Of a stretch of 38,371 bases of DNA, positions 16,459 to 38,371 are shown in pieces; positions within the stretch are counted from its first letter, which is position 1, and the number at the start of each line of letters is the position of its first letter. A program made the position numbers and the translations under genes. Origin of the DNA: Clostridia bacterium. Its GTDB lineage: Bacteria; Bacillota; Clostridia; Christensenellales; Borkfalkiaceae. Below the pieces are notes generated by a model. That model saw only the letters and a list, made by a program, of their open reading frames with translations. It did not search any database and was not told the DNA's origin. The DNA lies in NCBI GenBank assembly GCA_017467265.1, contig JAFTSO010000047.1:1-38371 (forward strand). Direction: 5' to 3'.

Positions 16459-17421
16459 TTAATAAAAGGTCGCCAGTTGCTCTTCGGGCGGATCGCATAC
16501 GATCACCTTTTCGGCAACCAGAACAGGACCTTTCCCTTTATAAATACGATGTTTTTTGAATTCTACCTTTGCCGTCACGCTGATCCAGTCGCGCGTTTGC
16601 AAGCCCATTACCTCGGGCAATTCGCAGGCTACGCCGCAATACTGAATATCGTCCACGCAGCAGGTCATTACGTGTCTGCCCACCACGACGTCCTGCGGCG
16701 AGAGCCGTTTGTCCGTCGCGACAATGCCGCGGAATTTTACCGTTTTGCCGATATATTCTTCCAGATTTTCCGTCAGATCGCGATAGAAAAACGCGTAATC
16801 CTTGTCTTCGATCGCGATAATCGGCGCGTTCACGTCAAAAGGCAACGGGTCTTCGATATCGTCAAAATCCGCTTTGCCGTCCACGCGTTCATAGACAATG
16901 TCACAGCGGCGCGAAATCCCACGCACCAGTTTGTGCAAAGCCATCTTATCCATACTCTCCGCGTAGCGATTGAACACGACAAGCTGCGTATTTTGGATTT
17001 TGTCGAATACGAGCTGGCGCATATTCGCGTTGTACCCCAACACCGTTTGCGCGTCGAAGAAGGTCATCATTTGATTGATCATCCAGCCTTCGGGCATTGC
17101 CGCAAAGAAATCTTCCAACAGCCACATACCATTATATTCGACGACGACGCGTTCTGCTCCGTGTTCGATTTGCAGCTGCGTGAGATATTCTTCCGTCATC
17201 TGCTCTTTGTCTTCGATCACGACAAGATCAACGCTCTCGGGCGTTGCAAATTTGATCGTTTCGTATTCTTCTTCGCCTTCTTCCATCACGAGCAACAGCG
17301 TCTTTTCCCCCGACGAAAAACGGGGATCTTCTAACGTTTCCTGAATAAATTTCGTTTTGCCCGATTCCAAAAAGCCCAAAAAGAGATAGACGGGCGTTTC
17401 TACGGGGAGTTTTTGTTTCAT
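16459..17421 (-). CDS. G3E-like GTPase fused to a DUF1980 (TIGR03943/YcgQ-type) C-terminal domain
   Basis: The 320-residue protein begins with a Walker A GFLESGKT (about 16-23) and a CobW/P47K-like nucleotide domain, but it lacks the CxCC metal motif of true COG0523 proteins and has FNRY where NKxD is expected. From about residue 220 it matches the C-terminal domain of TIGR03943/YcgQ proteins: YIGKTVKFRGIV, VVGRHVMTCCVDD, GVACE and ISVTAKVEF. In Firmicutes YcgQ-type proteins accompany YcgR permeases in zinc-linked gene sets. The fusion lies 17 nt after the His-rich G3E gene. I infer a shared metal-homeostasis task; biochemical activity is unknown. Confidence 0.7.
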   Translation of the reverse strand: MKQKLPVETPVYLFLGFLESGKTKFIQETLEDPRFSSGEKTLLLVMEEGEEEYETIKFATPESVDLVVIEDKEQMTEEYLTQLQIEHGAERVVVEYNGMWLLEDFFAAMPEGWMINQMMTFFDAQTVLGYNANMRQLVFDKIQNTQLVVFNRYAESMDKMALHKLVRGISRRCDIVYERVDGKADFDDIEDPLPFDVNAPIIAIEDKDYAFFYRDLTENLEEYIGKTVKFRGIVATDKRLSPQDVVVGRHVMTCCVDDIQYCGVACELPEVMGLQTRDWISVTAKVEFKKHRIYKGKGPVLVAEKVIVCDPPEEQLATFY

Positions 17422-17438
17422 AATCTTTTCCTTCTTCG

Positions 17439-18575
17439 TTAAATCTTAAACAGTAATTCCAAAGCGTGTTCGTGCAGACCGCAACCGATCACACAAAGCC
17501 GACCCGTCACCCCTGCTACGCCGTCGCGAACGTCGATTTCGCCCGGTACGTAATCAAAATGCAGCCAACCGTTTTCCCCTGCCACGATACCTTTCGCGCG
17601 GAGCACCGTGCCGTATTCGTGTTCGTGCTGAATTTCTTCCAGCGCCGCCGTAAGCTCGTCTTTTGTGTAAATTCTCGTCGTTTCCTTGCCCCAACTCGTA
17701 AACACGTCGTCCGCGTGATGGTGATGCCCGTGACCGTGACGATCGTGTTCGTGATGATGACAGCAGCAGTTAGGATCATCGCACTCTTCGTGATCGTGGT
17801 GATGATCGTGATGATGTTCGTGATGATGTTCGTGTTCACAGCACCCGTGATCATTGTGGTCGTGATGGTGATGATGACAGCAGCAATCGGGATCGCCGCA
17901 CTCTTCGTGATTGTGATGATGTTCGTGGTGATCGTGATGATGCTCCACTTCTTCGGAAAGCCGTGCAAGCTCCGCTTGCAAACTGTCTTTCTGTTCCATC
18001 GCCGCCAAAATCGCCTTACCGTCCAAGGTATCCCACGCCGCCGTGACAACCGTCGCCGTGGCGTTTTTCTCTTTCAACAGCGCAACCGCCGCCGCGAGCT
18101 TATCCGCGGAGACTTTGTCCGTATGCGAAAGGATAATGCAGCTGGCATTTTCCACCTGATCGCCGAAAAATTCGCCGAAGTTTCGCAAGTACATTTTGCA
18201 TTTCGCCGCATCAACTACCGTACAGAACGCGTTGAGCGTGCCGTCAATATTTGCGTTTTTCACCGCTTTGATCACGTCGCTGAGTTTTCCTACGCCCGAC
18301 GGCTCGATCACGATACGGTCGGGAGCATATTGCGCCGCCACCTGCTGCAACGCTTTGGAAAAATCCCCCACCAGCGAACAGCAAATACAACCCGAATTCA
18401 TTTCGGTAATATTAATTCCTGCGTCCTGCAAAAAACCGCCGTCGATGCCGATTTCGCCAAATTCGTTCTCTATCAAAACAACCTGTTCGCCTGCGTAGGC
18501 TTCCTTGATCAGCTTTTTAATCAACGTCGTTTTGCCTGCGCCCAAAAAGCCCGAAAAAATATCTATCTTCGTCAT
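17439..18575 (-). CDS. COG0523 G3E GTPase (CobW/ZNG1-like) with a His/Cys-rich metal-binding insert
   Basis: The 378-residue protein is a metallochaperone-type GTPase. Walker A GFLGAGKT is at 9-16, the metal-binding CxCC motif GCICC at 62-66 and the Walker B-like region IVIEPSG at 88-94. SHTDK at 150-154 stands at the guanine-specificity site, where NKxD is usual. Residues 212-287 are almost only His, Cys, Asp and Glu. They contain a 39-residue repeat whose units begin HEECGDPDCCC and HEECDDPNCCC. A CobW C-terminal domain follows. COG0523 proteins deliver metals, often zinc, to client enzymes under shortage. The insert could store or sense zinc, nickel or cobalt. SD: GAAGG. No Zur-like operator was identified by eye. 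Confidence 0.88.
   Translation of the reverse strand: MTKIDIFSGFLGAGKTTLIKKLIKEAYAGEQVVLIENEFGEIGIDGGFLQDAGINITEMNSGCICCSLVGDFSKALQQVAAQYAPDRIVIEPSGVGKLSDVIKAVKNANIDGTLNAFCTVVDAAKCKMYLRNFGEFFGDQVENASCIILSHTDKVSADKLAAAVALLKEKNATATVVTAAWDTLDGKAILAAMEQKDSLQAELARLSEEVEHHHDHHEHHHNHEECGDPDCCCHHHHHDHNDHGCCEHEHHHEHHHDHHHDHEECDDPNCCCHHHEHDRHGHGHHHHADDVFTSWGKETTRIYTKDELTAALEEIQHEHEYGTVLRAKGIVAGENGWLHFDYVPGEIDVRDGVAGVTGRLCVIGCGLHEHALELLFKI
17715..17942 (-). repeat. His/Cys-rich coding repeat (117-bp period)
   Basis: CAT/CAC- and TGC-rich codons encode the metal-binding insert of the G3E GTPase. The two HEEC...CCC blocks start at residues 223 and 262, exactly 39 codons apart, and the DNA between them is still clearly alike. 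This points to a recent tandem duplication and a length-variable locus. Confidence 0.8.
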
Positions 18576-30277: not shown

Positions 30278-30309
30278 AAAAAAAACAAGTACGGAGATTG
30301 CCGCACTTG
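30278..30309 (-). terminator. Riboswitch expression-platform terminator before the ATPase gene
   Basis: CAAGTGCGG pairs with CCGTACTTG (9 bp, one G-U) around a 6-nt loop and is followed by eight T on the minus strand. It lies between the aptamer and the ATPase start, about 60 nt before the ATG. A terminator at this place in a long leader implies metal-dependent antitermination. Confidence 0.88.
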
Positions 30310-30546: not shown

Positions 30547-31758
30547 TTAGAAAGGCAACAACACGAGCAGGTTGCACGATACTACGATAAGCACGAGTGC
30601 AAACGGGTACGTTGCCGCGTATGCCGACGATACGTCGTCCGTACCTGCTACGCTGATCAGCGAGCCAAGCGCAGGCGTGCTGGTCATACCGCCCGTAATC
30701 GAGCCGAGGTTGTTAAATATCGAAAGCTTGAACACGAATTTGCCGAGCAAGAATCCAACGATCATCGGTACGGTCGCCATAATGATACCGTAAACGATAT
30801 AAATCCAGTCGAACGACGATACGAAACGTACGCCGCCAGGGATACCTGCCCCCACCAAGAACAATACTAAACCGAGCTCACGGAAGAAATTGAGCGTTTT
30901 CTTGGATACCTTCATATCAATCTTGCCGAAGTGTCCGAAATGTCCTACGATAAGCCCTGCGATCAACGTACCGCCAGACGAGCCGAAACTGAAATAGTTG
31001 CCGCCGCCAATGGGCACTTTTACACAGCCGATCAAAAGGCCGAGCGCAATCGTGATAAAGAACGGGAAGAAACCGAATTCTTCCAAAGCAAATCTCTTTT
31101 TGCCGTCGTCTTTAATTTGGATCGTATTCGCCGCGACGAAATGTTCTCTTTCCTTCGCTATATCCACTTTCAAAATTTTGGGCATAATTTGCACGAAGAG
31201 GACTACGCCGAGTACGCCGTACAAATAGCCGATGCCGTAGCCTGCGGTCACTTCGCCTGCTGCCAAGCCTGCGGATTCCTTTGCCGCGCCAAACGCGGGC
31301 GTGGACGTAAGCGAACCCGAGAGCAAACCCGTACCCATAGCAACGCTCATATCTTTATCAATCCACGAAAGGAAAACGGTAATGCCTATGCCGAGTGCAA
31401 CGATTACCGCGCCCATAAATACGTACGACATCATACTCTTGTTGAACGAACGGAAGAATTTCGGGCCTGCAATCAGACCGACTGCCGTCACGAACAACAC
31501 CGTACCGATGTTCGAAATCGTACTCAAAACACTCTCGTCCGACGCACCCCAAAGCTCGATCGTTTTTTCTCCGAGCTTAATATCGGGGACGTACGAGAAC
31601 AGGACACCAACCAAAATAGCCACCAGCAATACCCCTGCCGAACCAAGTGAAATACCTTTGATCTTAATTGCGCCGACCAAATACCCCAGTGCGCAAACGA
31701 CAAAGACAATAAACAACGGCGTGAGCAAGGAATTTAATACTTGATATAAATATTCCAC
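30547..31758 (-). CDS. Aspartate:alanine exchanger-family transporter, putative succinate/C4-dicarboxylate exporter
   Basis: The 403-residue membrane protein has about ten hydrophobic helices in two halves. Each half ends in the duplicated signature (SGSLTSTPAFGAA and TGGMTSTPALGS) of the AspT/YidE-YbjL (AAEx) family. Central RCK/TrkA-C domains of the classical members are replaced by a short polar loop. The family includes AspT and the Corynebacterium succinate exporter SucE. Being the last gene after fumarate reductase subunits suggests it exports succinate or exchanges C4-dicarboxylates; substrate is inferred from context only. The start is GTG with AGGAG seven nt upstream; a longer frame from TTG lies inside the upstream hairpin and has no such site. 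Confidence 0.8.
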   Translation of the reverse strand: MEYLYQVLNSLLTPLFIVFVVCALGYLVGAIKIKGISLGSAGVLLVAILVGVLFSYVPDIKLGEKTIELWGASDESVLSTISNIGTVLFVTAVGLIAGPKFFRSFNKSMMSYVFMGAVIVALGIGITVFLSWIDKDMSVAMGTGLLSGSLTSTPAFGAAKESAGLAAGEVTAGYGIGYLYGVLGVVLFVQIMPKILKVDIAKEREHFVAANTIQIKDDGKKRFALEEFGFFPFFITIALGLLIGCVKVPIGGGNYFSFGSSGGTLIAGLIVGHFGHFGKIDMKVSKKTLNFFRELGLVLFLVGAGIPGGVRFVSSFDWIYIVYGIIMATVPMIVGFLLGKFVFKLSIFNNLGSITGGMTSTPALGSLISVAGTDDVSSAYAATYPFALVLIVVSCNLLVLLPF

Positions 31759-31779
31759 AATAAATCTCCTTATTTTTGC

Positions 31780-31821
31780 GGACAAAAACGCACAAAGCGT
31801 ACTACCCCGTGCGTTTTGTCC
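31780..31821 (-). terminator. Long hairpin between frdA and the transporter gene (attenuating terminator)
   Basis: GGACAAAACGCAC pairs with GTGCGTTTTTGTCC (13 bp with one bulge) around a 15-nt loop on the minus strand. The 3' arm includes five T. No promoter fits between it and the GTG start, so the transporter must be read through or processed from the frd transcript. It probably lowers expression of the last gene. Confidence 0.65.
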
Positions 31822-31851
31822 GTGCCTATTTCATCACATTTCCCTCTTTTT

Positions 31852-33456
31852 TTAGTTCGCCTGTCTTCTATAATCGGGCAGGAGCTTGGGCGATTGCGTA
31901 TCCGACGAGATACCTGCGTCGGCAAGTTCTTTCTCGAACGCCTGTACGTGATCGAGCGTCAACTCTTTGAGCTCTACGCTCTTGTACTTTTCACCAGCCT
32001 GCTGACCTGCGTTTCTACCGAATACGATAATGTCGAGCAAGGAGTTACCCATAAGTCTGTTCGTACCGTGGATACCGCCAACCGCTTCGCCTGCTACGTA
32101 CAAGTTTTCAATGCACGTCATACCGTTTGCGCCGATGTCGATACCGCCGTTCTGGTAATGAAGCGTGGGATAAATCAAAATGGGTTCTTTACGAATATCG
32201 ATACCGTATTTACCAAACATTCTCAGCATTGCAGGAATACGTTTTTCAATCGTGCCCTCACCGTTCAAAATATCGATAAGCGGCGTGTCCAGCCATACGC
32301 CTTCGCCGTCCGTCGTCTTGATCCCGTTGCCGTTTTGCTTACATTCACGAATAATGGAAGATGCGGTAACATCGCGCGTTTCCAGCGAATATACGAACGC
32401 TTCACCGTCCTTGTTGACGAGCTGTGCGCCCAGTGAACGCACCTTTTCGGTTACGAGCGCACCGTAGATCTGCGTGGGCTCTGCCGCACCCGTAGGGTGA
32501 TACTGCAACGTTTCGGGATAGAGCAATTTTGCGCCTGCTCTGTAAGCAAGCACCAAGCCGTCTGCCGTCGCACCGTAGTGGTTGGACGTAGGGAAACCCT
32601 GATAATGCAATCTGCCTGCGCCGCCCGTCGCGATAACGACCGTCTTCGCTCTTGCAATCAAAATTTCTTTCGTTTCCATATTCATCAACACCGCGCCTGC
32701 AATCTTGCCGTCGGTGTCTTTGATAAGTTCGATCGCCGCCGTGAAATCTACCACCGTGATACCGCGGTTGAACACTTCGTCGCGGAGCGTTCTCATGATT
32801 TCCGAACCCGAATAGTCGCGGCAAGCGTGCATACGCTTTCTGGACGTACCGCCGCCGTGCGTGGTGACCATCGTGCCGTCTTCTTCTTTGTCGAACATAA
32901 CGCCGAGATTGTTCAGCCACAAAATCGCCTCGGGCGCTTCGTTTACAAGCTTATATAAAAGTTCGGGCTTGTTCATAAAGTGACCGCCGCCGAGCGCGTC
33001 GAGATAGTGCGTAGCAGGACTGTCGTTGGGTTTGTCAGCAGCCTGAATACCGCCCTCTGCCATCGCCGTGTTTGCATCGCCCAAGCGGAGCTTTGTAGCG
33101 ATCATAACCTTTGCGCCGCGTTCGTGCGCTTCAATCGCCGCGGACGAGCCTGCGCCGCCACCGCCGATTACCAACACGTCCACGTCGTAATCGATCTTCG
33201 AAAGGTCGATTTTCATATCCTTGATACGGGAATGCCCCTGCAAGAGTGCAGCGAGTTCGTGCAATACTTTGCCGCCCTTGTTTTTGCCCACTTTCAGTTC
33301 TTCATAGGCAGACGTGATATAGTCGGGGTGGAACTGTGCCAAAACGGCGTCCTTTTCTTCCGCCGTCATACGCGCGTGGAGCTTTTCAATACGAGAAGCG
33401 CGCGTTGCCTCTACTTTTTTCATAGATTCAAGTTGTTCTTGCGTGTAATGATACAT
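31852..33456 (-). CDS. frdA: Soluble fumarate reductase flavoprotein subunit (FrdA/SdhA/TfrA family)
   Basis: The 534-residue FAD protein reduces fumarate to succinate. The Rossmann motif is DVLVIGGGGAGSSAAIEA (about 93-110). Catalytic residues line up with the family: H320 in QYHPTG, R361 in ETRDV, H433 in LHYQNGG and R467 in GIHGTNRLMGN. The His that covalently binds FAD in membrane Frd/Sdh is Asn (N129 in GDANTAMAEGG), so FAD is probably non-covalent. About 90 helical residues precede the FAD motif, an unusual extension. The C-terminal capping region is short. No cytochrome b or anchor subunit gene follows. It starts 12 nt after frdB (AAGGAG site). L-aspartate oxidase and adenylylsulfate reductase are related but fit the context less well. 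Confidence 0.88.
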   Translation of the reverse strand: MYHYTQEQLESMKKVEATRASRIEKLHARMTAEEKDAVLAQFHPDYITSAYEELKVGKNKGGKVLHELAALLQGHSRIKDMKIDLSKIDYDVDVLVIGGGGAGSSAAIEAHERGAKVMIATKLRLGDANTAMAEGGIQAADKPNDSPATHYLDALGGGHFMNKPELLYKLVNEAPEAILWLNNLGVMFDKEEDGTMVTTHGGGTSRKRMHACRDYSGSEIMRTLRDEVFNRGITVVDFTAAIELIKDTDGKIAGAVLMNMETKEILIARAKTVVIATGGAGRLHYQGFPTSNHYGATADGLVLAYRAGAKLLYPETLQYHPTGAAEPTQIYGALVTEKVRSLGAQLVNKDGEAFVYSLETRDVTASSIIRECKQNGNGIKTTDGEGVWLDTPLIDILNGEGTIEKRIPAMLRMFGKYGIDIRKEPILIYPTLHYQNGGIDIGANGMTCIENLYVAGEAVGGIHGTNRLMGNSLLDIIVFGRNAGQQAGEKYKSVELKELTLDHVQAFEKELADAGISSDTQSPKLLPDYRRQAN

Positions 33457-33468
33457 AGCGCCTTCTCC

Positions 33469-34143
33469 TTATTTCTCGATTTCTCTGTGATTGTACAGGT
33501 TTTTCTGTTCTTCCAGCGGCGTGTTCATAATCGATTCGAGTGCCGCTTTGCAATCCCCTGCGTCGATCTCCGCAACACGGTTGATCAAGTGTTCGCTCTT
33601 GGGTGCGAGATATTTACCCGTCAAACGTCTGGTAAGCAACGCAACCTGCGGATGCGAAATGCCTGCCGGGCAACGAGACGAACATACGCCGCACATTACG
33701 CAGTCAAAGCTCTCTTCCGCTGCTTTTTCGTATTCGCCGCGCTGTGCGTACGCGATATACTGCATAACGTTGAGTTCCTGCGTGCAGCTCTTCGTACAAG
33801 CATTACAGCCAATACACGAATAAATTTCGGGATACAGCTGCATCATAATTTGCTGCGTGGGTTTGACTTGATTGATGTCGTACACTTGCTTAACCAAGGG
33901 GAAGAACGGCAACGTCGCTACGTACATGCCCTCTTCTACTTGCTGTTGACAAGCAAGACAGGTTTTGAGTTCTTGTTGACCTTTGATACGGTAAATGGTC
34001 GAACAAGCGCCGCAGAAACCGTTTCTGCATCCGCAACCGCGGACGAGCTGATATCCTGCGTACTCCATCGCTTTCATAATCGTTAAACTTTCCGGAACTT
34101 GATAGCGTTTACCGAAAAGAAATACGTTTACCATTTTTTCCAT
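33469..34143 (-). CDS. frdB: Fumarate reductase iron-sulfur subunit (FrdB-like)
   Basis: The 224-residue protein has an N-terminal [2Fe-2S] ferredoxin domain (C37, C39, C44, C47, then C62 and C65) and two CxxCxxCxxxC motifs (C110-C120 and C148-C158, the second followed by Pro). Membrane-type FrdB carries a [2Fe-2S], a [4Fe-4S] and a [3Fe-4S] cluster; here both C-terminal sites have a full cysteine set, which suggests two [4Fe-4S] clusters, as in the iron-sulfur subunit of thiol:fumarate reductase. However, the CCG domain of that protein (TfrB) is absent. The subunit would pass electrons to FrdA. It lies between the FAD/NAD oxidoreductase gene and frdA with gaps of 12 nt. Confidence 0.88.
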   Translation of the reverse strand: MEKMVNVFLFGKRYQVPESLTIMKAMEYAGYQLVRGCGCRNGFCGACSTIYRIKGQQELKTCLACQQQVEEGMYVATLPFFPLVKQVYDINQVKPTQQIMMQLYPEIYSCIGCNACTKSCTQELNVMQYIAYAQRGEYEKAAEESFDCVMCGVCSSRCPAGISHPQVALLTRRLTGKYLAPKSEHLINRVAEIDAGDCKAALESIMNTPLEEQKNLYNHREIEK

Positions 34144-34155
34144 AGTTTTCTCTCC

Positions 34156-34983
34156 TTAATACTCGTCGGGCAATTCGTCGAGCTCCGTCATACGGAACAC
34201 GGGACCGTCTTTACATACGAACTTATCGCCTACGTTGCATCTTCCGCATTTGCCGATACCGCATTTCATACGGAGTTCCAATGTCGTATATACGCGGGAT
34301 TTTTCAAAGCCGAGCTCTAAAAGCCCCGCCAGCGTAAACTTGATCATAATGGGAGGTCCGCACAAAACCGCCGTCATCGAAGGGTCTAACCCCAACTCTT
34401 TGACATAGGCAGGTACGAATCCAACGTGTCCGCCCCAACCTTCTTGAGGACGGTCGATCGTGAGATAAACTTCCGTGTTCGGTTCGTTTACCCACTCCGT
34501 TTGGATCTCTTCAATGTCCACGAGATCGTCTTTACTTCTCGCACCGTACACGATGACGACTTTGCCGTAATTTTCACGGTAATGACGAACGTAGTTGATT
34601 ACGCTGCGCAAAGGCGCAAGACCGATACCGCCGGCAATAAAGAGCAAATCTTTGCCTTTAAAATCCTCTTCCACGGGGAAGTTCTTGCCGTACGGACCGC
34701 GAACAGTGATCTGCTGACCGACTTCCATAGCGTGAATCACTTCGGTTACACAACCGCATTTTTTAATGGAAAATTCCATATATTCTTCGTTCGTAGGCGA
34801 AGAAGTGATGGAGAACATACACTCGCCGACGCCGGGCACGGATACCATCGCGCATTGCCCGGGCATATGTTGGAACAGCTTTTTGCCGTCCGTTCCTACC
34901 ACGCGGAAAGTTTTTACGTCGGGCGTATCTTTACGAATGTCCGTAATGACGCCTACTTTCGGAATGAGATTTTCTTCAATCAT
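34156..34983 (-). CDS. FAD/NAD(P)-binding oxidoreductase (FlxA/AsrB-like)
   Basis: The 275-residue protein belongs to the ferredoxin-NADP reductase-like group that includes AsrB, PyrK and FlxA. It has a flavin-binding barrel (MPGQCAMVSVPGVGECMFSITSSP, about 40-63), a nucleotide-binding region (LLFIAGGIGLAPLRSVI, 113-129; GARSKDD; LCGPPIMIKFT) and a C-terminal [2Fe-2S] site with C241, C246, C249 and C257. It would oxidise NADH or NADPH and feed electrons to the neighbouring iron-sulfur subunits. Its ATG overlaps the end of the upstream gene by 8 nt. In sulfate reducers FlxA does this for the FlxABCD-HdrABC complex. AsrB of sulfite reductase is the main alternative, but no AsrC is seen. Confidence 0.85.
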   Translation of the reverse strand: MIEENLIPKVGVITDIRKDTPDVKTFRVVGTDGKKLFQHMPGQCAMVSVPGVGECMFSITSSPTNEEYMEFSIKKCGCVTEVIHAMEVGQQITVRGPYGKNFPVEEDFKGKDLLFIAGGIGLAPLRSVINYVRHYRENYGKVVIVYGARSKDDLVDIEEIQTEWVNEPNTEVYLTIDRPQEGWGGHVGFVPAYVKELGLDPSMTAVLCGPPIMIKFTLAGLLELGFEKSRVYTTLELRMKCGIGKCGRCNVGDKFVCKDGPVFRMTELDELPDEY

Positions 34984-36022
34984 TTGCGTTTCCTCCCAGC
35001 GTTTTGATTACTTTGACGATGTTCAGACGTTGAGGACACTTGTTCACGCAACGTCCGCAACCGACACACGAATACAATCCATCGTTCTGCGAGGGATAAT
35101 ATACGAGTTTATGCATAAATCTTTGACGATATCTTTGCATTTGCGTCGTACGGGAGTTACCGTGCGCCATCAGCGTGAAATCCGAATACATACAGGAGTC
35201 CCAGCAGCGGTAGCGGATTACGCCTTCGTTCGTCTTGAAATCGCGAATGTCGAAACATTGACAAGTCGGGCATACGAACGTACACGTTCCGCAACCCAGG
35301 CACGCTTCGCTCAACGACTCCCAAGCGGGATCGTCGAATAATTCGTTCAGGTTTTCGGGTTTGAAACGACTCAAATCCAACGCCGCAAAAGGCAAGCTTT
35401 CCAAAACCGCTTTGGTTGCCGCCTGCTGCGCTTCGACTTCCGCTTCTCCGCCGTTTTCAAAAAGCTCTTTGACAAGCTCGGTCAAGCTCTCGCCCTTTTC
35501 GGTGTTCGCCCGCCAATACAGATAGTTGTCGTCAAGCCAAGTCGTTACGTCGCCCTGCGGAGCCGCCGCATCGATTCCGAATACGCCGCAAAAACAGCTT
35601 TCTTCTGGACGGGAGCAAGCCAACGTTACGATCGTCGTCGCTTCTCTTCTGATTTGATAATAGGTGTCTACGGGATCGGCAAGGAATACTTTATCGAGCA
35701 CTTCGATCGCCTTATAATCACAAGCCTTCACTCCGAACGCCACAAAGGGCTTTTCGTCCGTTTTTTCCGCGAGCGCCTGACGTACGTCGATTACCTCGAT
35801 GTTTTTACCGTCCGTTTTAAACTTCATCATATTTTCCGTTTGCGGGAAGAAGATATTCTTGGGGGATTTTACCGTTTTCAACGTTTCAAGGGACACTTCT
35901 TTTCCTTCGCTCCAAACGGCGTAATTCACTTCGCCCGCTTTTTTCACGGGAATAAACAAACCCATCGTTTCATTGATCTTTGCGTACAGCTCGTTCAATC
36001 TTTCTTTTGCAATCTTCAACAT
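34976..36022 (-). CDS. 4Fe-4S dicluster protein (AsrA/FlxC-like)
   Basis: The 348-residue protein has two full CxxCxxCxxxCP motifs (C241-C251 and C319-C329) in its C-terminal half. The N-terminal half has FGVKACDYKAIEVLDKVF and CSRPEESCFC, typical of the AsrA/Fer4_22 family of electron-transfer subunits. It resembles its upstream neighbour in plan (a KxCD motif around residue 100, then two clusters), so the pair are probably old paralogues. Start: ATG shares one base with the TAA of the upstream gene (TAATG), with GGAGG just before. It likely bridges the NADH-oxidising subunit and HdrA or FrdB. Confidence 0.8.
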   Translation of the reverse strand: MLKIAKERLNELYAKINETMGLFIPVKKAGEVNYAVWSEGKEVSLETLKTVKSPKNIFFPQTENMMKFKTDGKNIEVIDVRQALAEKTDEKPFVAFGVKACDYKAIEVLDKVFLADPVDTYYQIRREATTIVTLACSRPEESCFCGVFGIDAAAPQGDVTTWLDDNYLYWRANTEKGESLTELVKELFENGGEAEVEAQQAATKAVLESLPFAALDLSRFKPENLNELFDDPAWESLSEACLGCGTCTFVCPTCQCFDIRDFKTNEGVIRYRCWDSCMYSDFTLMAHGNSRTTQMQRYRQRFMHKLVYYPSQNDGLYSCVGCGRCVNKCPQRLNIVKVIKTLGGNAND

Positions 36023-36999
36023 TATTTCGCCTCCCCGTAAACCACGTCGTTGACTTCCGAATCCCCTTCGGTAAACGAAGTGAGCGGCGTTTTGCCTTCG
36101 GATTCTTCGCCGGCTTGATACTCGCCGTACAAGCCGTCGATATCTTTGATGAATTTTCGATTGAGAAGGTGCAGAGGAATGTTTTGAGGACATACCCTCG
36201 AACATTCGCCGCAATCCGTACATCTGCCCGATACGTGGAACGCGCGGATCACGTGGAACAACTGTTCCTCAAATTGATCGTCGTTCGCTTTCGCCGCAAT
36301 CCCCGAAGCGGGATTGTCAAATACGCATTTCAAGCACGAACAAGCGGGACATACGTTACGGCACGCGTTACAGCGGATACACTTGGATAATTGCTCACGC
36401 CAGAACGCGAAACGTTCGTCTGCGGTCATCGCTTCCAATTTCTCCACTTCTTCAAAACGGTTTACGTCTTTGGCTTCACGCTCGTGCAGAATGATCTCCT
36501 CGTCTTTCGCTACGTGCGTTTTCGTACAAGTAGCGCATTTCGTAAGCACGACGTCGGGTTTATACAACGTCGCATTTCCGTAAGCAGACGTAACGTTTAC
36601 GTCCTTGCCTACGACTTCCACACCCGTCACGCCGACGATTCCGTTTCCTTTAATTTTTTCGATATCGAGTTTTCCAAGGCACTCTACCGCGATCACGTAC
36701 ACGTTTTCACGCTTGATACGGTATTCTTTTACGAGCTGATTAAAGCTGTACGTATCGCAAGGCTTCAAAAATACAGCCGTTTTACCTTCTTTCTTGCTGA
36801 CTTGGATCAAGTATTTGGAAAGGTTTGCGCCGCAGAAATAATCGTAAACGAAATCTTTCAATTCCTCTACCGTTTCAAAAACCGCAGGGGAGGGATCGAA
36901 ACAAAAATCCCCTTTCTTCCAGCCGACTACACGAGCAACTTCACCGCTTTCCAACAGCGCTTTCGCGCGCTCTATCATTTTCAATTCTACGTCTTTCAT
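36022..36999 (-). CDS. 4Fe-4S electron-transfer protein with FrhB-like region (FlxB-like)
   Basis: The 325-residue protein has FLKPCDTYSFNQLVKEY (about 77-93) and VYVIAVEC (C107) as in FrhB/FdhB-type proteins. KCATCTK (C155, C158) follows, then two CxxCxxCxxxCP sites (C207-C217 and C260-C270). It carries at least two [4Fe-4S] clusters, and the extra cysteines could hold a third. Gene order and size fit one of the two ferredoxin-type Flx subunits. SD: AAGGAGG, and the start lies 2 nt after the MvhD-like stop, so it is tightly coupled. Whether it binds flavin cannot be seen. Confidence 0.78.
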   Translation of the reverse strand: MKDVELKMIERAKALLESGEVARVVGWKKGDFCFDPSPAVFETVEELKDFVYDYFCGANLSKYLIQVSKKEGKTAVFLKPCDTYSFNQLVKEYRIKRENVYVIAVECLGKLDIEKIKGNGIVGVTGVEVVGKDVNVTSAYGNATLYKPDVVLTKCATCTKTHVAKDEEIILHEREAKDVNRFEEVEKLEAMTADERFAFWREQLSKCIRCNACRNVCPACSCLKCVFDNPASGIAAKANDDQFEEQLFHVIRAFHVSGRCTDCGECSRVCPQNIPLHLLNRKFIKDIDGLYGEYQAGEESEGKTPLTSFTEGDSEVNDVVYGEAK

Positions 37000-37000
37000 C

Positions 37001-37456
37001 TTACTCGCCCTCCTTTACTCTCAAGTCGGTAAGGCGTTTATTTTCGCCAAGTTTCGTTACCGTTTCCACGAAATCGTTCATCACGGCGGAGAAACGCGCG
37101 CCCTCTGCCGCGGATACCCACTCTACGCGGGTACGCTCTTTTTCAATCCCCATATAATCCAGGAAATTGAACAGGAGCGCCATTCTTCTTCTCGTGTAAT
37201 AGTTACCCGTAACGTAGTGACAATCCCCGGGATGGCAACCGCAAAGGATTACGCCGTCCGCGCCCTGTTGGAACGCCTTCAAAATGAACGTGGGATTTAC
37301 ACGACAGGAACAAGGTACGCGAATGATCTTTACGTTCGCCGGATACGTCAGACGGCTGGAGCCTGCAAGATCCGCGCCGGCGTACGAACACCAGTTACAG
37401 CAGAACGCTACGATATTCGGCGTAAATTCTTTCTTTTCCGTAGTTACTTCTTGCAT
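37001..37456 (-). CDS. MvhD/FlxD-like hydrogenase iron-sulfur subunit
   Basis: The 151-residue protein has the MvhD/FlpD cysteine pattern: FCCNWCSYAGADLAG (C19, C20, C23), PCSCRVNP (C49, C51) and CGCHPGDCHY.TGN (C72, C74, C79). MvhD-type proteins carry a [2Fe-2S] cluster and dock the electron-donating module (hydrogenase, formate dehydrogenase or Flx) onto HdrA. Start: ATG with GAGG upstream, overlapping the end of hdrA by 13 nt; a longer frame inside hdrA is less likely. The direct contact with hdrA is the same as in many HdrA-MvhD pairs. Confidence 0.9.
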   Translation of the reverse strand: MQEVTTEKKEFTPNIVAFCCNWCSYAGADLAGSSRLTYPANVKIIRVPCSCRVNPTFILKAFQQGADGVILCGCHPGDCHYVTGNYYTRRRMALLFNFLDYMGIEKERTRVEWVSAAEGARFSAVMNDFVETVTKLGENKRLTDLRVKEGE

Positions 37457-38371
37457 ATCGCTTCTACCTCCGACATAATCTGTTTCGAGCTGAATCCTTT
37501 CAGATCCATCGCTCCCGACGGACAAGTTACCGTACACGCGCCGCAACCTTGACATACTGCAGGATTGACCGACGCTACGCGACGGGTTTCCGTCTTACCG
37601 CCGCCGAGACGGAATTCCTTATCGAGATACGTGATCGCGCCGTACGCGCATACGTTCGCGCATTGGCTACATCCGTTACACATCATTTCATCGGGCGTCG
37701 CTACGCAAGGATTGGTCTTGAGTTTATCTTTTACGAGCAAGCCGATTACTTTCGCCGCGCAAGCGGAAGCTTGCGATACCGTTTCAGGAATATCTTTCGG
37801 GCCTTGGCATACGCCTGCGAGATATACGCCCGCCGTAGGACTTTCTACCGGACGAAGCTTCGCGTGGGATTCGGTGAGGAAGTTGTTGGTATCGATGCTC
37901 GCCGTGAGCAACGTAGCCACCTTTCTAACCGAAGGCTCGGGTTCGATCGCCGTTGCGAGAACGACGAGATCGGATGCAATCGTAATTTGTTCGTTGTCGA
38001 TGAGGTTAGAACCCTGCACCATCAACTTACCGTTTTCGTTATACACTTTGCCGACCATACCCTTGATATAGTCCACTCCGTACTGTTCCACCGCGCGGCG
38101 GTAGAATTCGTCGTAATTCTTACCGGGCGTACGAACGTCGATATAGAATACGTGAACTTCGGTATCGGGATATTTTTCACGAATGAGCATTGCGTGCTTC
38201 GCCGTATACATACAGCAGATCTTCGAGCAATAAGGCTTGCCGCAACCGCTGGAATCACGAGAGCCTACGCATTGAATAAACGTGATTACTTTCGGATGTT
38301 CGTTATCGGAAGGACGCAACAACGTACCGCCCGTAGGACCAGCCGCGTTCATCAAACGCTCCAACTCCAAC
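37444..38371 (-). CDS. hdrA: HdrA-like flavin/iron-sulfur subunit, 5' part outside the window
   Basis: The last 308 or so residues are present. They contain VITFIQCVGSRD...YCSKICCMYTAKHA, the HdrA region that follows the FAD domain. Next are DIRT-like VRTPGKNYDEFYRR, LATAIEPEP, FLTESHAKLRPVES.TAGVYLAGVCQGPKDIPETV (FAD-binding end), and two 4Fe-4S sites (CNGCSQCANVCAYGAI and CQGCGACTVTCPSGAM). HdrA is the flavin-based electron-bifurcating subunit of heterodisulfide reductase complexes and of bacterial Hdr-Flx systems. The N-terminal FAD motif, any fused domain and any hdrB/hdrC genes would lie beyond the right edge. Confidence 0.92.
   Translation of the reverse strand, partial: LELERLMNAAGPTGGTLLRPSDNEHPKVITFIQCVGSRDSSGCGKPYCSKICCMYTAKHAMLIREKYPDTEVHVFYIDVRTPGKNYDEFYRRAVEQYGVDYIKGMVGKVYNENGKLMVQGSNLIDNEQITIASDLVVLATAIEPEPSVRKVATLLTASIDTNNFLTESHAKLRPVESPTAGVYLAGVCQGPKDIPETVSQASACAAKVIGLLVKDKLKTNPCVATPDEMMCNGCSQCANVCAYGAITYLDKEFRLGGGKTETRRVASVNPAVCQGCGACTVTCPSGAMDLKGFSSKQIMSEVEAICKK

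Follow-up and report, generated by a model that had tools for sequence, protein, structure and literature searches.

A conserved operon of gut Clostridia joining Flx-Hdr genes to fumarate reductase: a putative soluble, electron-bifurcating NADH:fumarate reductase

Genes at the contig end

The window analysed here, the entire 38,371-nt contig JAFTSO010000047.1 (G000:C27) of a metagenome-assembled genome (MAG; 79% complete, 53 contigs) of a Clostridia bacterium, ends in a run of redox genes. On the minus strand, from 38371 down to 30547, lie hdrA, which is cut by the contig end, a flxD/mvhD gene, two genes for 4Fe-4S dicluster proteins, a FAD/NAD oxidoreductase gene, frdB, frdA, and a gene for an AspT-family transporter. 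The spacings between successive genes are -13, 1, -1, -8, 12, 12, and 66 nt, the last being counted to the longest transporter frame. These values bear out the original prediction as to the genes, their order, their single direction, and overlaps or gaps of 13 nt or less ahead of a hairpin before the transporter. The run is a real operon and is strongly conserved.

What is left of hdrA (37444..38371, minus strand, as are all features below) comprises the C-terminal 308 codons and matches NCBIfam HdrA2 (E 4.4e-95) over profile positions 350-642 of 777. It overlaps by 13 nt with the flxD/mvhD-like gene (37001..37456), whose 151-residue product belongs to the FlpD family (PF02662, E 9.9e-57). The longest flxD frame opens at 37555; because the Pfam match begins only at residue 48 and many relatives have a Met-Gln start at the place equivalent to 37456, the latter is the likely start. 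There follow a flxC-like gene (36022..36999) for a 4Fe-4S dicluster protein of 325 residues (Pfam Fer4_8, 2.9e-9, residues 203-274), a flxB-like gene (34976..36022) for a 348-residue 4Fe-4S protein related to sulfhydrogenase beta and AsrA (NCBIfam ShyB, 8.3e-58, below cut-off; PF17179, 3.6e-30), and a flxA-like gene (34156..34983) for a FAD/NAD(P)H oxidoreductase of 275 residues (PF00175, PF00970, and PF10418), for which the closest PDB entry is the gamma subunit of sulfhydrogenase 1 (9nez_C, 1.9e-55). The letters flxA to flxD follow what we take to be the usual nomenclature; the domain content itself comes from Pfam and NCBIfam. The redox genes end with frdB (33469..34143; 224 residues) and frdA (31852..33456; 534 residues), a fumarate-reductase-type flavoprotein gene (PF00890, 5.8e-75). 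No membrane segment (hydropathy window >1.6) was found in the redox subunits, and the gene for a cytochrome b anchor, as expected of a membrane quinol:fumarate reductase, is missing from the cluster. The earlier view, in which HdrA and an NADH module of the Flx type are coupled to FrdBA with no gene for a membrane anchor, is supported.

The upstream half and its conservation

The hdrA gene at the contig end lacks its first ~355 residues (a homologue in the related locus L034 has 663), and a search of the same MAG for this N-terminal part found nothing. However, the terminus of another contig of the MAG, C3, carries a gene resembling lactate or malate dehydrogenase, then a fumC sharing 97% identity with the L034 gene, and finally hdrB as far as its ninth codon (ATG AAA ATC CGT TAT TAT CCA GGC TGT, MKIRYYPGC), at which point the contig ends. 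A search for the HdrB domain in this assembly was negative, as expected if hdrB sits in the gap between C3 and C27; the gap would hold most of hdrB, all of hdrC, and the 5' part of hdrA. A second contig with fumC, C31 (L180), is 84% identical in nucleotides to C3 (L179) and is itself cut inside fumC. The pair is consistent with admixture of a second strain or species, which probably also broke the assembly of the operon.

To see the operon whole, we used FrdA as bait and took the best 80 of 400 relatives, loci from GTDB genomes with FrdA identity of at least 75%, a set biased toward near ones. Many of the records have titles naming the gut of goat, sheep, deer, buffalo, yak, or chicken, and one belongs to a named strain, Merdimmobilis hominis An559 (L110). 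The order in these relatives is the lactate/malate dehydrogenase-like gene, where present, fumC, hdrB, hdrC, hdrA, flxD, flxC, flxB, flxA, frdB, frdA, and the transporter gene. A locus was counted as evaluable when it had a complete hdrA and room upstream. All 58 such loci have hdrB and hdrC directly 5' of hdrA and frdB and frdA downstream, in the order hdrA-mvhD-flx-frdB-frdA for which a search had been suggested, and an order kept in every one of them is not due to chance. The fumC gene is present in 55 of 57 evaluable relatives (it is missing from L065 and L068), and the dehydrogenase-like gene in 37 of 56. In L034, the fumC product passes the class II fumarase cut-off and narrowly exceeds that of a broad aspartase subfamily.

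These loci indicate that HdrBC is present in the lineage and that the full unit reads (ldh/mdh)-fumC-hdrBCA-flxDCBA-frdBA-transporter. The original prediction had FrdB/FrdA taking the place of HdrB/HdrC in the complex, and the window by itself does lack the latter two. Since relatives have both genes directly upstream and hdrB of this very MAG begins behind fumC on C3, the idea is refuted at the level of gene content as an artefact of the contig end, and we give it next to no credence. Although hdrBC thus lies just upstream, separate transcription of frdAB is not indicated, the gaps there being 12 nt.

The transporter gene (30547..31785; PF06826, 7.1e-60) encodes a member of the AspT/YidE family. 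A homologue lies within 1.6 kb past frdA in 66 of 72 evaluable loci, the others being L062, L083, L095, L102, L109, and L110. Because these six have none and 48 of the 66 homologues are at most 50% identical to that of the window, the exporter appears to be exchanged more freely than the enzyme. By family and position, it is a putative succinate exporter. Its start is likely a GTG near 31758, after AAGGAG. The predicted hairpin between frdA and this gene is present (31779..31822; -27.1 kcal/mol, z -4.28 against 200 shuffles), but it is no classic terminator: directly 3' of it stands GCAAAAATAAGGAG rather than a T run, and a terminator scan of the minus strand lists none there. The scan does list a hairpin with a T run 3' of the transporter gene (30286..30309), a possible end of the operon, which is weakly supported given that 10 such sites were found in the scanned stretch and 11.1 are expected in shuffles. 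Elsewhere in the window (16459-18575), a gene with a DUF1980 C-terminal domain lies beside a CobW-family gene, a pair suggestive of metal handling.

The FrdA family occurs in 30 of 247 genomes of the order and in 39 of 398 genomes of the phylum, with varying neighbours in the latter (threshold 1e-90; weakest listed match 5e-183). Five further loci of the order (L171-L175) carry fumC-hdrBCA-flxDCBA-frdBA, whole in four and cut in the fifth; with 1.3 to 3.1 kb of downstream room, a transporter was matched only in L173. Outside the order, we inspected 29 loci from 28 genomes (L142-L170), four of them short and with only about 3 kb downstream covered. One, L165, has the complete hdr-flx-frd set; hdrC-hdrB-frdBA is found in L152, L160, and L164, and frdBA-hdrBCA in L147, L154, and L157. 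Long hdr arrays precede frdBA in L146, L150, L159, and L163 (L156 is cut). FrdBA is therefore best described as a module with several neighbours, of which HdrB is a recurrent one.

Three observations from these loci stand apart. In the arrays of L146, L150, L159, and L163, from other families of the phylum, HdrA-like stretches follow one another several times ahead of mvhD and frdBA; the products may be bigger bifurcating assemblies that use FrdBA as their acceptor. In L158 and L167, the neighbours of FrdBA are small proteins that begin with a hydrophobic stretch and carry C..CH motifs; by eye they resemble cytochromes, and they may serve the module as an alternative electron donor. L166 (G151) holds a second, diverged FrdA (56-57% identical) without a frdB match, in a genome that also carries a frdBA pair.

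Subunits and cell context

Alignment to E. coli FrdA (3p4p) shows that FrdA of the window keeps the four substrate-site residues H320, R361, H433, and R467, which we take to be E. coli H232, R287, H355, and R390. This His, Arg, His, Arg set of soluble TfrA/FrdA-type fumarate reductases is invariant in 44 sequences picked from the loci at hand. At the position of the E. coli His that links FAD covalently there is N129, likewise invariant in the 44, and a His motif at this place was found in none of 79 near and none of 34 other FrdA sequences. E. coli FrdA that has lost this His still reduces fumarate, whereas succinate oxidation is not spared. Because the His is missing, we take FrdA to work in one direction only, as a fumarate reductase whose FAD is bound non-covalently. 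The protein also has an N-terminal extension of 88 residues (33193-33456), partly invariant in the 44 sequences. It lies beyond the listed PDB matches, whose best stretches begin at residue 77 or later, and is a candidate docking part.

FrdB combines a 2Fe-2S motif with two intact 4Fe-4S motifs (CxxCxxCxxxC), a set kept in 78/78 near and 33/33 other loci, and a Pfam scan found no CCG (HdrB-type) domain in it. The best NCBIfam match of FrdA is TfrA (1.1e-106), at 357.6 bits against a cut-off of 718. With FrdA under that cut-off and FrdB without a CCG match, the pair does not classify as a TfrAB thiol:fumarate reductase. The HdrB of the operon carries both CCG motifs in 58/58 near and 15/15 other loci, and it scores alike with SdhE of 8-methylmenaquinol:fumarate reductase (7.4e-39) and methanogen HdrB (1.0e-38), both well below cut-off. 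Together, HdrB and FrdB look like a split TfrB. The alignment of the L034 HdrA to 5odc_A, a bifurcating HdrA, spans the full protein (2.9e-209), and 28 of 30 cysteines are kept by an eye count. The gene types of FlxABCD-HdrABC are thus all accounted for, hdrA and four flx-type genes by the window and hdrBC by the relatives.

For the cell context, we examined 37 genomes: the window's own, 22 of the genus, and 14 of other families of the order. MenD was above cut-off in none of them, the weak matches in 17 being taken for other thiamine pyrophosphate enzymes; the futalosine route to menaquinone was not searched. Neither was Sdh_cyt above cut-off in any (one weak match), in a search that did not include Fumarate_red_C/D. 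E. coli and B. subtilis, used as controls, were positive for both MenD and Sdh_cyt. [FeFe]-hydrogenase was matched in 34 of the 37, with 23 above cut-off. Without correction for relatedness, an HdrB-type domain and FrdA occurred together in 17 genomes, FrdA only in 4, the domain only in 2, and neither in 14; one of the four with FrdA only is the window's own genome, with its contig break. Within the 14 genomes of other families, 2 have both and 12 neither.

We also considered the operon as a stand-in for Rnf. A first sample had hinted at FrdA-positive genomes without canonical RnfC; among 247 genomes of the order, however, RnfC was above cut-off in 16/30 with FrdA and 153/217 without (Fisher p 0.063), which shows no clear pattern, and the idea was dropped. 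A RnfC-like match in the window's MAG (G000:C35:1372-2343) and similar places in the genus consist of frames of ~430-490 residues that score far under the RnfC cut-off and are interrupted by stop codons in several genomes, this one among them.

Proposed electron route, alternatives, and known systems

From gene content, gene order, cofactor ligands, and fumarate-site residues, we infer a complex, an electron route, bifurcation, a direction, and an exported substrate as follows. The redox proteins of the operon would assemble into a single soluble complex working without quinone. FlxA would take a hydride from NADH, and electrons would pass through FlxB, FlxC, and FlxD to the FAD of HdrA and be split there. 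The low-potential electron would reach ferredoxin (Fd) over the 4Fe-4S clusters of HdrA, while the high-potential one would travel from HdrC to HdrB, FrdB, the FAD of FrdA, and finally fumarate, with HdrB and the short FrdB doing the job of the fused TfrB in thiol:fumarate reductase. Two rounds would yield 2 NADH + fumarate + 2 Fd(ox) -> 2 NAD+ + succinate + 2 Fd(red), for which we compute about -49 kJ/mol at standard potentials (-320, +33, and -420 mV, from PMC5861303). Succinate would leave through the AspT-family transporter, and reduced ferredoxin would give its electrons to [FeFe]-hydrogenase or, for some of the relatives, to Rnf. The split of electrons between fumarate and ferredoxin that had been proposed for this locus remains plausible, and we consider a soluble bifurcating complex of this kind the probable function of the genes. 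The fuller claim, that a nine-subunit FlxABCD-HdrABC-FrdBA is a true bifurcating NADH:fumarate reductase and the main quinone-free succinate route in many gut Clostridia, with HdrB a fixed bridge to FrdB and not a disulfide reductase, seems to us evenly poised between right and wrong.

Several points weigh against this proposal. Bifurcation is not established for every HdrA. With both CCG clusters, HdrB may yet be a reductase of free disulfides or of a DsrC-like protein. Because the first gene of the operon (in L034) is above the NCBIfam cut-off for L-lactate dehydrogenase, being above that for malate dehydrogenase in a broader model, the malate step of the pathway is unsure. Outside the order, hdrB was found in 11 of the 29 loci and in none of the others in the stretch covered, several of which adjoin fumarase- or malic-enzyme-like genes (labels by eye). 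Since FrdBA pairs occur there without nearby flx or hdr genes, FrdBA can presumably work with other donors. In the 34 other FrdA sequences from the order and phylum, patterns for the substrate site were matched incompletely (QYHPTG in 24, the Arg motif in 21, PT.HY in 31, and HG.NRL.GNS in 31). A literature search, in open access and with most subscription journals outside it, returned nothing on a bifurcating fumarate reductase by name and no biochemical proof of a bifurcating or NADH:fumarate complex. PMC5861303 warns that gene presence alone is no proof of bifurcation, and in PMC7282089 a lowered redox potential acts opposite to H2 in Pseudoclostridium thermosuccinogenes, which its authors call confusing.

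Two readings would keep the proteins together and change what they do. The genes could encode two enzymes coupled by a thiol, with FlxABCD-HdrABC reducing the disulfide of a small molecule or a protein along with ferredoxin, and FrdBA, for which HdrB would oxidise the thiol, acting as a thiol:fumarate reductase. The invariant CCG motifs of HdrB and the TfrA match of FrdA, below cut-off as it is, speak for this, as does DsrC, the proposed partner of Flx-Hdr in Desulfovibrio vulgaris (PMC10920352). However, FrdB has no CCG match of its own, so that a free-thiol route needs HdrB twice, and none of the operon genes struck us as dsrC-like, though no search was aimed at dsrC. We therefore judge this arrangement unlikely, if still to be reckoned with. 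A Flx-Hdr-Frd complex might also be real and serve as a plain, non-bifurcating NADH:fumarate reductase, for the transfer from NADH to fumarate is exergonic alone (68 kJ/mol at standard potentials), and the caution of PMC5861303 about genes applies here too. HdrA would be superfluous to such an enzyme, however, and it retains nearly all the cysteines of the bifurcating 5odc_A, which makes this quite unlikely.

It is very unlikely that FrdBA and Flx-Hdr are separate enzymes merely sharing an operon. The phylum does have FrdBA pairs beside fumarase- and malic-enzyme-like genes with no flx or hdr in the stretch covered, but adjacency is strict in 58/58 loci of the near set, and the orders hdrCB-frdBA and frdBA-hdrBCA recur in other families. 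Least credible of these is reverse use, in which electron confurcation would drive succinate oxidation. Hdr-type enzymes are reversible in principle, yet FrdA lacks the FAD-linking His that in the E. coli enzyme goes with succinate oxidation, and fumarase and a putative exporter share the operon. Moreover, the bearer of an identically composed operon is a succinate-forming fermenter (PMC7282089).

If the bifurcating Flx-Hdr-Frd complex is real, fumarate reduction would conserve energy with neither membranes nor quinones involved, and fumarate would join the acceptors of HdrA-type bifurcation. It would also explain how succinate, an important gut metabolite, arises from gut Clostridia without detected MenD or a cytochrome b anchor. 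The published proposal (PMC7282089) rests on one thermophile; the spread of FrdA makes the question general.

That thermophile, P. thermosuccinogenes, supplies the closest known system, so the original statement that no complex of exactly this composition had been described does not stand. PMC7282089 describes a "succinate operon" in which fumarate hydratase is encoded together with a Flx-Hdr complex of seven genes, two genes for fumarate reductase, and what may be a succinate transporter; it proposes the role given above, coupling to ferredoxin included, and cites a 2019 preprint (doi 10.20944/preprints201912.0288.v1). The operon is about 4-fold up under CO2 limitation, not significantly for every subunit, and the arguments there from flux and H2 fit a bifurcating enzyme. 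By description and locus-tag order, our operon is the same, with fumarase, seven flx/hdr genes, frdBA, and a transporter in one direction, although in the window's own MAG the copy is split over C3 and C27. It differs in being carried mostly by uncultured gut Clostridia and often having a lactate/malate dehydrogenase-like gene in front; the transporter family may also differ, theirs being a "hypothetical protein" compared by description and not by sequence. Operon composition and proposed role were thus already known; new here are the location of the missing hdrBC, the conservation counts, and the residue tests. Among the open-access papers found to mention the operon carrier Merdimmobilis hominis in connection with succinate, none is by its title about the products of this strain.

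A similar idea comes from tubeworm symbionts, in which the products of interspersed tfrAB, korABCD, and flx-hdr were suggested to form a complex (PMC6315080). Clustering of tfrAB with flx-hdr is common to both; the operon genes conserved in our loci do not include korABCD. PMC7325909 reports an actinobacterium with frdAB lacking membrane subunits and with hdr genes as well, and the accessible parts of that paper, of PMC9044749, which provides a CRISPRi tool for P. thermosuccinogenes, and of PMC10579422 hold no further report of a Flx-Hdr-Frd complex.

FlxABCD-HdrABC of D. vulgaris shares all seven gene types with our operon; DsrC is the proposed acceptor there (PMC10920352), while here frdBA follows. 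Methanogen TfrAB likewise has a TfrA-like FrdA and both HdrB- and FrdB-type parts, but in our operon the HdrB-type part is a separate gene and FrdB is short. With SdhABE, the 8-methylmenaquinol:fumarate reductase, the likeness lies in HdrB, which matches SdhE and HdrB equally; unlike that type, MenD was not found in the relatives, and HdrC, HdrA, and Flx are added. The bifurcating systems up to 2017 listed in PMC5861303 include no fumarate reductase in the part accessible to us, but do offer a parallel in MetFV-HdrABC-MvhD of Moorella. There too, HdrABC-MvhD is proposed to send electrons from NADH to an acceptor that is not a disulfide, MetFV in Moorella and, in the complex proposed here, FrdBA.

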